The position numbers were made by a program, and so were the translations under genes. From NCBI RefSeq assembly GCF_030580955.1, contig NZ_JAUQON010000001.1, positions 806,001-870,000 on the forward strand: DNA of 64,000 nucleotides, in the 5' to 3' direction. Source of the stretch: Hymenobacter convexus (GTDB taxonomy: Bacteria > Bacteroidota > Bacteroidia > Cytophagales > Hymenobacteraceae). Numbering within the stretch: the stretch's first letter is position 1; each line of letters begins with the position of its first letter. The notes below the pieces were generated by a model, which was not told the DNA's origin, searched no databases, and saw only the letters and a list, made by a program, of their open reading frames with translations. Shown piece by piece: positions 12,235 through 16,223 of this stretch.

Positions 12235-12942
12235 ATGGGAAAATTCATTACGCCAACGTGCCAGGACTGCCCTCACCGCAAAGGCCCGCTGATGGGTTGC
12301 TGTCAATTAGAGGAATTGGACTTTATCGCGACCAGCAAAATTTCCCAGAGCTACCAGAAGGGCCAGCGGATTTTCCATGAAGGCAGCCCGGCCCTCGGCT
12401 TGCATTGCGTGAGCCAGGGCAAAATCAAAGTGACCAAAGCCAGCGGCGACGGCAAAGAGCAGATTGTGCGGCTGGCCAAGGACGGCGACGTGCTGGGCTT
12501 CCAGTCGGTGCTGACCGAAAGCCGCTACAGCACCTCGGCCGTGGCGCTTGATGACTGCGTGGTGTGCTTCATTCCGCGCGCCGATTTTTTCCGGGTGTGG
12601 CAGTCGAACGTGCAGTTCTCAACCTCGCTCATGCAGATGATGGCCAAAGCCCTTGGCGCGGCCGAAGTGCAGATGTTGCACCTCGCCTACAAGCCCGTAC
12701 GCGAGCGGCTGGCCGAGGCTTTGCTTCTGCTCTACCACACCTTCCGCGAAGAAAGCGATGCCTTACCCTTCAGCATGTCCGTTTCGCGCGAAGACCTGGC
12801 TTCGCTGGTAGGCACGGCCAAAGAAACGGCCACGCGGCTGCTTTCTGATTTCAAAGAGGCGGGCATTATTGCCACCCGGGGCAGCCAAGTCACGATTTTG
12901 AAGCCGAACAGCCTCAGCGAAATTGCGTCGCTCTACGACTAA
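12235..12942 (+). CDS. Crp/Fnr-family transcriptional regulator with N-terminal cysteine cluster
   Basis: 235 aa from the ATG at 12235; an in-frame extension back to 12106 would read through the promoter and is rejected. Residues 9-23 read CQDCPHRKGPLMGCC, a Cys-X2-Cys-X9-CysCys cluster. Further cysteines lie in the beta-roll (C108 and C111 in LDDCVVCFI), reminiscent of the FNR 4Fe-4S ligands. The cyclic-nucleotide-type roll spans about residues 35-150 (GQRIFHEGSPALGLHCVSQG). The helix-turn-helix is at about 180-215 (SREDLASLVGTAKETATRLL). It probably senses oxygen or redox and binds a TGA-N6-TCA-type site. Two such dyads lie just downstream at 13124-13157, ahead of the Roadblock-like array. 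Confidence 0.9.
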   Translation: MGKFITPTCQDCPHRKGPLMGCCQLEELDFIATSKISQSYQKGQRIFHEGSPALGLHCVSQGKIKVTKASGDGKEQIVRLAKDGDVLGFQSVLTESRYSTSAVALDDCVVCFIPRADFFRVWQSNVQFSTSLMQMMAKALGAAEVQMLHLAYKPVRERLAEALLLLYHTFREESDALPFSMSVSREDLASLVGTAKETATRLLSDFKEAGIIATRGSQVTILKPNSLSEIASLYD

Positions 12943-13123: not shown

Positions 13124-13157
13124 TGACTTAAATCATTGTCAAAAATGACGTAAGTCA
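13124..13157. promoter_or_regulatory. Tandem TGA-N6-TCA dyads, candidate Crp/Fnr operators
   Basis: TGACTTAAATCA (13124-13135) and TGACGTAAGTCA (13146-13157) have centres exactly 22 bases (two helical turns) apart. The second sits in the larger palindrome AAAAATGAC-gtaa-GTCATTTTT. They lie between the Crp/Fnr gene and the Roadblock-like array. The second dyad would be centred roughly 42-45 bases before a start served by the box at 13182-13189, close to the class II activator position. Confidence 0.55.
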
Positions 13158-13181
13158 TTTTTAAAGGGGTGGGCTAGTGCG

Positions 13182-13272: not shown

Positions 13273-13728
13273 ATGAATGTGTCTGCTGCTGCCGACGTGC
13301 CGCTGAGAAAACGCGTCGGAAGTACGCGAATTATTGAGGGAAGACAAGCACTTGCTGCTTCTGAAATCAATCTTTCTAAAATTCAAAAAATAATAAAGCA
13401 GGCACTTGCCGATTTGCCCGCTCTCACAACCATTGCAGTGGTGGAAGTGACGACGGCAAACTGCCTGGCTCACGTCAGCCGTGCGCGGGGCTTCGACCCC
13501 GTGGCCACGGCTGCCCACCACGCCGAAACGGTGCGCCAGCAGCAACAGGCCCTGGCGGCCCTGTCGAAGCGCGGCGAACGCCTCGAAGACATCCTTATCC
13601 CGCTACGAAAACAACTGCATCTCATTCGCTTATCCAAGAACAGCCAGTGGTTCGTGTACCTGGCTGTGAAGGCGCAGGACACCAGTCTGGCCCTGGCCCG
13701 CGAAGTATTGAAATCAATCATTTTTTAA
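13273..13728 (+). CDS. Roadblock/LC7-like protein, paralogue 1
   Basis: 151 aa. An N-terminal basic extension of about 30 residues precedes the domain. The domain follows the order helix (KIIKQALADLPAL), strand (TIAVVEVTTANCLAHVS), long helix (HAETVRQQQQALAAL), strands (LEDILIPLRKQLHLIRL and WFVYLAVKAQDTSLALAREV). The last block corresponds to the Fxyl-V-NLaiAR part of Roadblock/LC7 and MglB-like proteins. Roadblock domains dimerise and usually regulate small Ras-like GTPases, or act in scaffolds. No GTPase gene is adjacent. It is the first gene of the array; the next starts 47 bases on. Its first 120 bases are unusually AT-rich. Confidence 0.7.
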   Translation: MNVSAAADVPLRKRVGSTRIIEGRQALAASEINLSKIQKIIKQALADLPALTTIAVVEVTTANCLAHVSRARGFDPVATAAHHAETVRQQQQALAALSKRGERLEDILIPLRKQLHLIRLSKNSQWFVYLAVKAQDTSLALAREVLKSIIF

Positions 13729-13775
13729 CAATTCATCAAACTCAACCCCTTCATCTTTTTACGCTTACCCTTATC

Positions 13776-14150
13776 ATGGCTTACTCAACGAATTCCCCCG
13801 CTGGCAAAGTAGTACAAGACGTGTTGAACGATTTGCCGGGCCTGGTGGCCGTGGCGGTGGTCGACATCACCTCGGGCATGGCCCTGGCCTCGCATTCCAA
13901 TTCGCCGTCTTTGAACCCCGAAACGGCCGCTGCTTACAACACCGAAGTGGTGAAACAGAAGCAGAAAGCCATGTCGGCGCTGAAACTGACCGGCGAGAAC
14001 ATCGAGGACATCCTCATTACCCTCACCAACCAGTTTCACCTCATCAAACTGGCCGGCAACAAGTTCATCTACCTGGTGGTGAATTCGCGCGAAACCAACC
14101 TGGCCATTGCCCGCGAGGTACTGCGCAGCACCGCTGACAACCTGAACTAG
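13776..14150 (+). CDS. Roadblock/LC7-like protein, paralogue 2
   Basis: 124 aa from the ATG at 13776, the same start as its close copy at 15698 (both begin MAYS-NSPAGK). It is a bare Roadblock-type domain: VAVAVVDITSGMALASHSNS (strand-turn-strand), the helix ETAAAYNTEVVKQKQKAMSA, IEDILITLTNQFHLIKL, and FIYLVVNSRETNLAIAREVL. No signal or membrane segment, so cytoplasmic. By hand alignment it differs from the 15698 copy at about 14 positions plus a two-residue insertion. The likely role is a dimeric adaptor; the partner is unknown. Confidence 0.75.
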   Translation: MAYSTNSPAGKVVQDVLNDLPGLVAVAVVDITSGMALASHSNSPSLNPETAAAYNTEVVKQKQKAMSALKLTGENIEDILITLTNQFHLIKLAGNKFIYLVVNSRETNLAIAREVLRSTADNLN

Positions 14151-14193
14151 TTTGGCTGACGGCGGCCCGGTAGCCGTCGGACCCACGCACCGC

Positions 14194-14224
14194 TGCCGCG
14201 CCCGGTCTGCCCCCGGGCGCGGCA
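14194..14224 (+). other. Strong GC hairpin between array genes
   Basis: TGCCGCGCCCGG and CCGGGCGCGGCA form a perfect 12-base stem around a 7-base loop. There is no T-run, so it is more likely an mRNA-stabilising or attenuating structure than a terminator. It sits between paralogues 2 and 3. Confidence 0.6.
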
Positions 14225-14252
14225 CCAGCCGGGACTACCCACCCCGCGCCCT

Positions 14253-14726
14253 ATGAAAATCCCTTTTCTCAAGCAGTTGCAGCGCCTGGCCGGCCCGGTG
14301 GCCCACGAAGTGGAATTGCTGGCCCCCACCGGCCCGGCCAGTGCGCCCATCGAACAGGCCATCCGGCACTTGCTGGCCGAGTTGCCCGATATGCTGATGG
14401 GGGCCGTGGTAGAAGTGGCCACCGGCAAGCCCCTGGCCACCTACACCACCGACCGGGACCTGCGGCCGGGCGTGGTAGCGGGCTTCAACGCCGAGGCGGT
14501 TCGGCAGGTGCAGGCGGCGGTGCGGGCCCAGGGCACGCCCGGCGAGCGGGTAGAAGAAATGCTGTTTACGCTGCCGTCGCAGCTGCATTTGCTGCGGCTG
14601 GAAGCCACGGGACGCTGGTTTATCTACCTGGCAGTGGAAACGCGCGACACCAATCTGGCCATTGCCCGCGAAGTGATGCGCGGCGCCATTGCGCTGCTGG
14701 ATGGGGCAGGAGGTAGCCGTAGTTAG
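14253..14726 (+). CDS. Roadblock/LC7-like protein, paralogue 3
   Basis: 157 aa, the most divergent copy. An N-terminal amphipathic extension (MKIPFLKQLQRLAGPVAHEV) may bind a partner or membrane. The domain then follows: LMGAVVEVATGKPLATYTTD, the helix AEAVRQVQAAVRAQGT, VEEMLFTLPSQLHLLRLEAT, WFIYLAVETRDTNLAIAREV. The key blocks match paralogues 1, 2 and 4 in order and spacing. The stop is 61 bases before the membrane protein gene at 14788, consistent with one transcript. Confidence 0.72.
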   Translation: MKIPFLKQLQRLAGPVAHEVELLAPTGPASAPIEQAIRHLLAELPDMLMGAVVEVATGKPLATYTTDRDLRPGVVAGFNAEAVRQVQAAVRAQGTPGERVEEMLFTLPSQLHLLRLEATGRWFIYLAVETRDTNLAIAREVMRGAIALLDGAGGSRS

Positions 14727-14787
14727 GCCCGTGGCTGGCCGGTAAGCCACATTCTTTATTTTCTCACCCTTTTTTTCTGTCACCCAA

Positions 14788-15486
14788 ATGAAGCTGACCG
14801 CTACCCCATTTGACGCGCAGACCGGCGAGTTGCTGCCCGTCTACCGCGACGCTTACCTGCGCGGCGACCTGGCCCGCTCCTCGGCCCGCGCCGTGGAGGA
14901 CTACCTGCGCAAGGACGCCACCCAAGCCCACACCACCGTCACGCGCTGGCACGAAATGTCGACCGTTGAGGCCGAGGCTGCTGCCCCCACCACCTGGGTG
15001 CAGAAGCAGATGCTGTTCATCCGCGAGCAGCCGCAGCGCTTCCGCCGCCGGGCGTTCTCGATGGTGGGCGTGGCCGCGCTGGTGGCCGGCGTATCGATGG
15101 CCGGCACCCGCTTGCCTTCGCACAGCACGCCGGCCGTGCCGGTGTCGCTGCCCGAAATGACGGCGCTGGCCTCGGCTAGCACCGCCGCTGCCGAAGCCAC
15201 CGCCAATGCCAACCGCATGGTGACCGTGAGCGGCCGCATTGTGAACGAAGCCGGCCAGCCGCTGGTGGGCGCCACCGTGCTGCGCAAAGGCACCGCCCAG
15301 GGCGTGAGTACCGACGCCAACGGCAACTACAGCCTGCGCATGACCGCCGGCACGGCCGCCACCACCACCCTGCAGTACGGGTACGCCGGCTACCACGACC
15401 AGGAGCTGAAGGCAACCGACGCCTCGGCTCAGGGCGTGACCCTGCAGCCCCGCGCCGCCAAGCACAAGCGCTGGCTGCTTTTTTAA
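14788..15486 (+). CDS. Single-pass membrane protein with CarboxypepD_reg-like periplasmic domain
   Basis: 232 aa. The N-terminal region (residues 1-90, including LPVYRDAYLRGDLARSSARA) resembles the helical layout of anti-sigma-factor cytoplasmic domains but lacks zinc-binding cysteines. A basic segment (QRFRRRAF) and one helix (MVGVAALVAGVSMAGT, about 91-108) cross the membrane. Residues 145-225 are a carboxypeptidase-regulatory-like beta-sandwich (VSGRIVNEAGQPLVGATVLR and GVSTDANGNYSLRMTAG), as found in TonB-receptor plugs and cell-surface proteins. Embedded in the Roadblock-like array, it could link the cytoplasmic paralogues to the envelope; that is inference. Confidence 0.75.
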   Translation: MKLTATPFDAQTGELLPVYRDAYLRGDLARSSARAVEDYLRKDATQAHTTVTRWHEMSTVEAEAAAPTTWVQKQMLFIREQPQRFRRRAFSMVGVAALVAGVSMAGTRLPSHSTPAVPVSLPEMTALASASTAAAEATANANRMVTVSGRIVNEAGQPLVGATVLRKGTAQGVSTDANGNYSLRMTAGTAATTTLQYGYAGYHDQELKATDASAQGVTLQPRAAKHKRWLLF

Positions 15487-15697
15487 CTAAATGACTTTTA
15501 GGTAGTAAGTGGCTGGAATCGGGGCCGAGACGCCTGTTGTCGAAACCTGCGATGCTGGCTGCTTACTGCTGAATTCTACCTACTTACTAGTTGCCGGCCC
15601 GCGTGGCCCTATCGTAGTGAAAGCGAGGACCTACCGTAAGCACGTTGCGAATAAGCTCAAAGAATCTTCTTTATCTAACTCCCTTCCTTTAGCCGAA

Positions 15698-16078
15698 ATG
15701 GCCTACTCCAAAAACAGTCCTGCCGGCAAGGCAGTCGACGGAATTATCAACGATTTGCCGAGCCTAGTGGCGGTGGCAGTAGTCGACATCACCTCGGGCA
15801 TGGCCCTGGCCTCGCACTCGAATTCGCCGTCTCTCAACCCGGAAACGGCCGCGGCCTACAACACCGAAGTGGTGAAGCAGAAACAGAAAGCCATGTCGGC
15901 CCTGAAGCTCGCGGGGGAAAAGATTGAGGACATTCTTATCACGCTGACCAACCAGTTTCACCTGCTGAAGCTGAATAATGCCGGCAACAAGTTTATCTAC
16001 CTGGTGGTGAATTCGCGCGAAACCAACCTGGCCATTGCCCGGGAAGTGCTGCGCACCCACGCCGACGAAATCAACTAA
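15698..16078 (+). CDS. Roadblock/LC7-like protein, paralogue 4 (near copy of paralogue 2)
   Basis: 126 aa, starting at the ATG that aligns with the start of paralogue 2. The central 55 residues, from VAVAVVDITSG through QKAMSALKL, are identical in the two proteins. The DNA differs mainly at third codon positions, so this is a fairly recent duplication under protein-level selection. The stretch between 15486 and 15698 (211 bases) is the longest gap within the array and may hold a separate promoter, though I see no good TAnnTTTG box. Terminated at 16098-16135. Confidence 0.75.
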   Translation: MAYSKNSPAGKAVDGIINDLPSLVAVAVVDITSGMALASHSNSPSLNPETAAAYNTEVVKQKQKAMSALKLAGEKIEDILITLTNQFHLLKLNNAGNKFIYLVVNSRETNLAIAREVLRTHADEIN

Positions 16079-16097: not shown

Positions 16098-16135
16098 AAA
16101 AAGGCCCGTCCACTATTGGACGGGCCTTTTTTTTT
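16098..16135 (+). terminator. Rho-independent terminator ending the array
   Basis: AAAAAGGCCCGTCCA, loop CTAT, TGGACGGGCCTTTTTTTTT. A long stem with strong A and T runs. Confidence 0.93.
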
Positions 16136-16140
16136 GTGGG

Positions 16141-16223
16141 GTAGAGACGCAATATTTTGCGTCTTGTCGTCAGCGCCTCTAGCGAATCGTTCAACGACGA
16201 GACGCAAAATATTGCGTCTCTAC
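16141..16223. repeat. Palindromic repeat, family C, overlapping the DUF2339 stop codon
   Basis: Arms GTAGAGACGCAATATTTTGC (16141-16160) and its complement GCAAAATATTGCGTCTCTAC (16204-16223), extended inward by GTCTTGTCGT/ACGACGAGAC with one gap. The arm end supplies the TAG stop (16220-16222) of the DUF2339 gene. Confidence 0.85.

Follow-up and report, generated by a model that had tools for sequence, protein, structure and literature searches.

What do Roadblock proteins, which are regarded as regulators of GTPases or as platforms for them, do in a locus where no GTPase is to be found? The question is raised by an array of five genes in Hymenobacter convexus, contained in a 64,000-nucleotide stretch of DNA (hereafter the window; contig C10, positions 806001-870000) from a genome of 5.98 Mb (coded G000; other G numbers denote other genomes and L numbers loci). 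All five genes were found on the + strand of the window, where they encode four Roadblock-fold copies at 13273-13728 (copy 1, 151 residues), 13776-14150 (copy 2, 124 residues), 14253-14726 (copy 3, 157 residues) and 15698-16078 (copy 4, 126 residues), and a single-pass membrane protein, here called C (232 residues, 14788-15486), between copies 3 and 4. Along the same strand the gene of a Crp/FNR-type regulator precedes copy 1 and a hairpin follows copy 4. Roadblock paralogues and C, which is specific to the genus, form a conserved unit, and we see about an even chance that the locus encodes a membrane-anchored, GTPase-free Roadblock scaffold under redox control.

The evidence for the unit comes from its distribution. 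Thirty-nine genomes were searched, namely 25 of Hymenobacter (the own genome and 24 congeners) and 14 of other genera; all candidates were scored with a Roadblock profile (A1) and a profile of linked GTPases, and for C up to 73 of the 112 candidates per genome were scored and the stronger matches listed. Profile A1 finds the Roadblock family in 18 of the 39 genomes, all of them Hymenobacter (18/25 against 0/14 in other genera), and seven Hymenobacter genomes are without any Roadblock match. The C-terminal domain of C is a common one and gives partial matches in all 39 genomes. Full-length C, aligned from residue 1, occurs among the matches listed at 28 places in 17 genomes: 17 of the 18 with a Roadblock match and none of the 21 without. 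The sole Roadblock-positive genome lacking C (G012) holds a Roadblock remnant of 55 codons. For each of the 28 listed full-length C genes the nearest Roadblock gene is no more than 456 bp away, and C accompanies 28 of 40 Roadblock clusters, with one to four Roadblock genes within 1.5 kb of it. Across the 25 congeners, Fisher's test of C against Roadblock genes gives p values, uncorrected for kinship, of 9e-7 with G012 counted as negative and 2e-5 with it counted as positive. A search was also made of 395 genomes sampled from the phylum, with at most 10 candidates per genome scored for Roadblock, 8 for the GTPase and 11 for the N-terminal part of C, so that presences are lower bounds; the N-terminal part of C is found in at least two, the own genome and G204, both with Roadblock genes, and among the four Hymenobacter genomes of the sample G110 and G424 lack both.

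Gene order was compared in 77 loci fetched by name with a family profile, all from Hymenobacter or the family Hymenobacteraceae (one Solirubrum record, which we take to belong there, included). Roadblock copies were sorted into A, a and B, identity classes set in this analysis; copies 2 and 4 of the window are of the conserved A type and copies 1 and 3 of the divergent B type. C is present in 58 of the loci, and 57 of these have an A copy together with a divergent copy, while in L045 two A copies accompany C and B is absent. The 58 layouts comprise A-B-C-a (17), B-C-A (8), pairs followed by C (8), the B-A-B-C-A of the window (7), A-B-C-B (6), A-B-C-A (5) and seven single forms; removal of identical copies dropped one of 190 domains, in L085, which with that domain counted back reads A-B-C. 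An earlier note on this DNA had staked its reading on gene order being conserved in related genomes, and the order is indeed kept across Hymenobacter. Its array of four describes the window correctly and does not extend to the genus, in which the number of Roadblock genes around C is not fixed. Two loci have features of their own: in L064 (4398-4839) copy 1 is split over two frames and looks broken, the other copies being open, and a Hymenobacter canadensis plasmid (L169; 377,776 bp, typed as non-mobilizable) carries a C-Roadblock-Roadblock module with PAS-domain genes and a transposase nearby.

The four copies are paralogues, as the earlier note had proposed: all align over their length, with identities to copy 2 of 89% (copy 4), 43% (copy 1) and 40% (copy 3). 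A shared FIYLxV...TNLAIAREV motif had been taken as typical of Roadblock/LC7 proteins, an attribution that fails, the motif belonging to the array family only. No Pfam or NCBIfam model recognises any of the four copies; Pfam Robl_LC7 (PF03259) matches none of them and nothing above cut-off in the own genome, has matches above cut-off in three of 14 control genomes, and is not among the 25 families listed of the 30 that are matched by 139 family members. Pfam matches of the copies to DYN1_lid, DUF6981 and DUF1678 (E 0.02-0.04) were set aside as chance; DUF6981 matches 21 of the 139 members, with a best E of 0.0017. Sequence-only searches of solved structures with alignments of 4 and 139 rows returned nothing meaningful, and fold search alone worked. 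The AlphaFold2 model of copy 2, built on the 139-row alignment (A2, in which copy 1 also stands), has a pLDDT of 93.9 and a pTM of 0.88, and its elements follow the order a-b-b-a-b-b-b-a (H-E-E-H-E-E-E-H), which PMC5680233 gives as typical of the Roadblock fold. In a Foldseek search of the PDB, MglB of M. xanthus ranks first (E 9.1e-8), and the best 50 of the 145 matches at E <= 0.001 are MglB, MglC, bacterial or Asgard Roadblock and Ragulator-type chains. VIA-align returns Z scores of 16.7 for Asgard Roadblock3 (9jue), 16.2 for MglB (6hjm) and 15.3 for a chain of the MP1-p14 complex (2zl1), the top superpositions reaching 1.8-2.5 Å over 114-115 residues, nearly the whole length of copy 2; profilins and Rag GTPase entries form the next tier at Z of about 11-12. 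A profile-profile comparison of the family with three canonical Roadblock proteins yields a probability of 73.6% (E 2.9e-5). Because a confident model, the structure search and the profile-profile comparison agree, the modelled copy 2 is solidly assigned to the Roadblock/LC7 fold, as the earlier note had supposed, and copies 1, 3 and 4 would share it by homology.

All five array genes differ from their orthologues in loci L039 and L041 most at third codon positions (for copy 2 against L041, 10, 6 and 47 differences at first, second and third positions over 124 codons), and they are therefore constrained. The proteins of copies 2 and 4 are identical in their middle, which raised the possibility of gene conversion between them; because 48 of 124 third positions differ, constraint fits this identical core better than a recent conversion does.

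The Roadblock family itself reaches well beyond the genus. A Hymenobacter-only family had been suggested by the narrow profile, and this apparent restriction, due to the narrowness of the query, is ruled out by a broader profile, which finds the family in at least 26 of the 395 genomes and at least 12 of 170 genera of the phylum sample, and by tblastn in other phyla. On plasmids, tblastn returned 28 records, including Streptomyces, Deinococcus, Comamonas, Acinetobacter and Agarilytica; members outside Hymenobacter share 41-49% identity among the 20 of 28 records listed and are annotated 'hypothetical protein' wherever a gene is listed. A phage collection contained no relative of the family, nor did IMG/VR as queried with one short pattern. 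The relatives in G317, G043 and G425 have as neighbours a canonical Roadblock gene and a GTPGQ-bearing Ras-like small GTPase; a quick tree, weakly rooted and with few outgroups, places G317 and G043 next to the Hymenobacter copies. In a further family of the same class (f20) the gene is mostly accompanied by a second Roadblock-like gene and no GTPase (weak matches, E 1e-4 to 1e-10). Thirty-eight loci outside Hymenobacter (20 from the phylum sample and 18 from plasmids, chosen among hits and not independent, four being from G365 and two from G425) were scanned with canonical-Roadblock and GTPase profiles built from 7 and 4 proteins of the same loci: 20 have a canonical Roadblock gene nearby, four of them with a small GTPase as well, and 18 have neither. 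Since relatives occur in other phyla, often beside a canonical Roadblock gene and sometimes a small GTPase, the family constitutes an unnamed Roadblock branch, which accompanies a canonical Roadblock gene in roughly half of the 38 loci, and the Hymenobacter array is a GTPase-free offshoot of this widespread family. No paper on it was found in the one open-access library searched.

Some of the outside loci have unusual company. On plasmid pSU2 of Agarilytica rhodophyticola (L170:4992-7063) genes for a BLUF photoreceptor, a Ras-like small GTPase and an annotated roadblock/LC7 protein stand in a row with a family member on one strand, possibly as a light-controlled Roadblock-GTPase switch. At L141 (7680-8498) a relative of the family is fused behind a response-regulator receiver domain and adjoins a canonical Roadblock gene, with a small GTPase near. 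A DUF4388-annotated gene adjoins a family member on a Deinococcus plasmid (L178:4393-4905), and a weak DUF4388 match does so on a Streptomyces plasmid (L171:3631-4407).

There is no GTPase gene inside the array, in keeping with the earlier note, which had remarked that none lies next to it, and the absence extends further. Searched with Arf, Roc and linked-GTPase profiles, though not with those for Ras and Rag, the own genome shows no Ras-like small GTPase; nor do Arf and Roc yield a Rag-type candidate there, the Pfam profile specific to Rag not having been used. NCBIfam identifies three of the five Arf hits as IF-2, MnmE and HflX; the other two are an ABC-F ATPase and, by eye, a YchF-like protein. 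Six of the ten Roc hits are IF-2, Era, two Der, HflX and, by eye, a FeoB-like protein. The other four occupy frames of 508-879 codons, whereas the linked GTPases of L157 and L141 have 168-178 residues. The linked-GTPase profile, built from three small GTPases that adjoin distant Roadblock relatives, matches none of the 25 Hymenobacter genomes, gives four weak matches (E 0.002-0.007) in the 14 genomes of other genera, and finds at least 10 of the 395 phylum-sample genomes at E 1e-10, three of which supplied the profile. Neither a GTPase nor a canonical Roadblock partner was thus found in the own genome, which has the divergent paralogues and C instead.

These searches bear directly on the alternative of regulation in trans, in which a GTPase or other NTPase encoded elsewhere would be the target of the Roadblock proteins, as may hold for uncoupled MglB, and C would only localise them. 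We regard it as unlikely, though it draws some credit from the small Ras-like GTPases that adjoin distant relatives (those with GTPGQ in G043, G317 and G425, and that of the Agarilytica plasmid) and from uncoupled MglB genes being common, 328 of 749 according to PMC4316618. It is opposed by the three profiles in the own genome, by the linked-GTPase profile in the 24 other Hymenobacter genomes, and by the identities read for the five Arf and six Roc hits. The array proteins share their fold and a similar length with MglB and MglC, MglB being the best Foldseek match, and distant family members adjoin canonical Robl_LC7 genes and small GTPases with GTPGQ, a motif assigned to MglA groups 2-5 in PMC4316618. 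Unlike MglB and MglC, however, the array proteins escape Robl_LC7, have no MglA-like GTPase that could be found in the 25 Hymenobacter genomes, and form a row of paralogues with a membrane protein and an FNR-like regulator at their side. A coupled MglA-type GTPase was encountered only in the distant relatives named above; because such a coupled GTPase was sought and not found, we do not file the array as MglB.

The membrane protein C consists of an N-terminal part (residues 1-88), a hydrophobic segment (about 89-106), a variable linker and a C-terminal domain (about 144-220). As anticipated in the earlier note, it is a single-pass protein with a CarboxypepD_reg-like domain (PF13715, E 4e-13, residues 147-215) beyond its one hydrophobic segment. 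The start of the protein is strongly conserved, 22 of residues 1-28 being invariant or nearly so (consensus MKLTASPFDPQTGELLPVYRDAYLRGDLS), and its end has a conserved Trp and Phe, the Phe at or near the C-terminus being invariant in 56 sequences. A basic stretch precedes the hydrophobic segment. By the positive-inside rule the basic flank of a membrane segment stays on the cytosolic side, and for this reason residues 1-88 are predicted to be cytosolic and the C-terminal domain periplasmic. From the model of C only the match of this C-terminal domain was used, which is to the N-terminal extension (NTE) of the SusC structure SusCdex (9hfj, E 8.7e-8); unlike in SusC, the NTE-like domain is C-terminal in a 232-residue single-pass protein that has no SusC barrel.

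This architecture invites the idea that C is an anti-sigma-like signalling protein, with the Roadblock proteins as adaptors, in a cell-surface pathway by which an outer-membrane transporter signals to transcription. The single membrane segment and the SusC-NTE-like domain are in its favour, as is a match of the anti-sigma zinc-finger profile zf-HC2 to five of the 56 C members (best E 0.0064); yet that match is weak and does not include the C of the window (P0004), and the two flanking genes scanned, the Crp-type regulator and a gene with a weak, sub-cut-off DUF2339 match, are not sigma factors, although no search for sigma factors was run. PMC7782687, moreover, states the function of the NTE as unknown and gives the anti-sigma role to STN domains rather than NTE. 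We consider this explanation improbable, a shade more so than regulation in trans.

Loci without C point in another direction, in which the Roadblock proteins would belong to a polarity or two-component adaptor module and act on sensor kinases, as in the conservons of Streptomyces. Among the 19 named loci lacking C, seven (L073, L084, L087, L089, L092, L095 and L111; kinase domains checked for five) carry, upstream of the Roadblock copies and in divergent orientation, the gene of a related hybrid histidine kinase; the fusion of a distant relative to a receiver domain at L141 and the PAS-domain genes flanking the H. canadensis plasmid module are of the same tenor. No kinase gene is seen beside the array of the window, however, and kinase linkage is mostly with copies that lack C, so that we give this explanation little credence. 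The conservons (Cvn) comprise a kinase, the Roadblock protein CvnB, CvnC and the GTPase CvnD according to PMC4316618. The family resembles them in that some of its Roadblock genes lie near sensor kinases and those of distant relatives near small GTPases; unlike them, no CvnD-like GTPase was found in Hymenobacter and the membrane protein of the window is without kinase domains.

The redox element of the preferred scaffold reading comes from the regulator gene (12235-12942, + strand; its frame is open from 12106, and relatives support the ATG at 12235), which encodes cNMP_binding and HTH_Crp_2 domains. In 46 of the 77 loci the array is preceded by an orthologue of this gene, even where genes farther upstream differ. 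Cysteines 52, 55, 66, 101 and 154 (numbered from 12106), candidate ligands of an iron-sulfur cluster through which the regulator may sense redox state, are conserved in 47 of 47 sequences; their spacing differs from that in E. coli FNR. The 450 bp in front of the first copy contain a TGAC-N4-GTCA motif in 17 of the 46 arrays with the regulator and in none of 30 without it, against a background of 0.012 per 480 bp (76 of the 77 loci were tested, L078 with its first copy on the other strand being left out and the window not counted). A weight matrix made from these 17 related sites scores 20 of 29 held-out loci above all of their 20 mononucleotide shuffles. In the window, a pattern search places the 22-base palindrome AAAAATGAC-GTAA-GTCATTTTT at 13141-13162 (not assigned to a strand), the predicted operator to which the adjoining regulator would bind; it is the sole match in the window at up to two mismatches, has no counterpart in 100 shuffles and occurs once in the own genome. 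G005, G014 and G024 each have exactly one such palindrome, about 110-260 bp upstream of their array, and the exact pattern is also present in three other genera. The regulator resembles FNR/CRP proteins in its domains, in having conserved cysteines and in its predicted TGAC/TGAT half-sites and, unlike them, has a single exact predicted site in its genome. A 55-codon Roadblock remnant in G012 (L024; G012:C1:3919221-3919385) lies about 65 bp after an unbroken regulator relative (69%); here the array has apparently been lost and its switch gene kept. A second relative of the regulator (56%) lies elsewhere in the own genome (G000:C14:249537-250250) and tells against exclusivity.

That the copies are neutral tandem duplicates without joint function, as differing copy number between species and the broken copies of G012 and L064 might suggest, is contradicted by the third-position bias in all five genes, by the conserved order with C and the regulator and by the co-occurrence of C, and we think it very improbable.

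The remaining features of the locus are quickly described. Upstream of the regulator lie genes for the E1 and E2 components of 2-oxoglutarate dehydrogenase, recognised by eye from translations. Copy 4 is followed on the + strand by a terminator-like hairpin of 15 pairs with a T run (16098-16131), one of five such sites in a hairpin scan against a mean of 4.1 in shuffles. Between the array and the next gene (16144-16220) stand two copies of the palindrome GAGACGCAAAATATTGCGTCTC at up to three mismatches, with no others in the window. A large flanking protein has a weak, sub-cut-off match to DUF2339. Elsewhere in the own genome, contig C12 carries two further Roadblock copies and a second C gene.

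On the reading we prefer, that of a membrane-anchored, GTPase-free scaffold under redox control, the regulator would sense redox via its conserved cysteines and switch the array genes on or off through the palindrome. Dimerisation being general among Roadblock proteins, the A and B proteins would pair with themselves or with each other, and the resulting homo- or heterodimers may dock on the strongly conserved, putatively cytosolic N-terminus of C. C itself would cross the inner membrane and present its SusC-NTE-like Ig domain to the periplasm; the platform might couple a cytosolic assembly to envelope events, perhaps to TonB-dependent transport across the outer membrane, because C is predicted to span the inner membrane with a periplasmic domain. 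A cytoplasm-to-envelope signalling or scaffold role had been suggested in the earlier note, and this putative role is strengthened by the strict pairing with C and the probable dedicated regulator site.

Several observations weigh against the scaffold reading. The composition of four Roadblock genes and one C is not conserved, the number of Roadblock genes beside C varying from one to four, and C is missing from 12 of the 40 clusters and 19 of the 77 named loci, which shows that Roadblock copies may occur in its absence. The model of C is of low quality (pLDDT 68.1, pTM 0.35) and too weak for conclusions about its N-terminus. Nine of the 29 held-out loci fail to beat all their shuffles, the palindrome being degenerate or undetected there; the exact 22-base pattern is missing from 21 of the 25 Hymenobacter genomes, and the regulator is found without the array in G015, where a 55% relative occurs but Roadblock matches are lacking. 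Nor does the lack of a GTPase set Hymenobacter apart, since four of the 26 Roadblock-positive phylum-sample genomes are among the 10 positive for the GTPase.

Another known system that the array calls to mind is the Ragulator/LAMTOR complex with its yeast counterpart EGO-TC, in which Roadblock dimers combine with one membrane-anchored protein, a layout that the array resembles if its proteins do dimerise; human Ragulator consists of p18, MP1-p14 and C7orf59-HBXIP (PMC5680233), and copy 2 finds some of its best structure matches in MP1-p14 and Ragulator entries. A count of four plus one genes (BABCA) is found in the window and in seven of the 77 named loci, with one to three Roadblock genes beside C elsewhere. 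Unlike the lipidated p18, the anchor C would be a transmembrane protein with an Ig-like domain; no Ras-like GTPase was found, and the number of Roadblock genes varies. Because the composition is not fixed, we do not file the array as Ragulator. A bolder version of the scaffold reading, in which a bacterial Ragulator-like device of Roadblock homo- and heterodimers on a dedicated transmembrane anchor, drawn from an unnamed multi-phylum family, wired to redox and bearing an SusC-NTE-like domain, signals without a Ras-like GTPase, is possible, and we hold it only tentatively.

A conserved unit of Roadblock proteins and an anchor, in a lineage in which no GTPase was found, lets one ask what a Roadblock platform does alone. 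The array is well suited to such study, having few genes, a probable unique operator and a natural absence in seven of the 25 Hymenobacter genomes. The family as a whole is missed by Pfam and NCBIfam, and naming it would reveal Roadblock systems that are now invisible, including the case in which its neighbours are a BLUF photoreceptor and a small GTPase.

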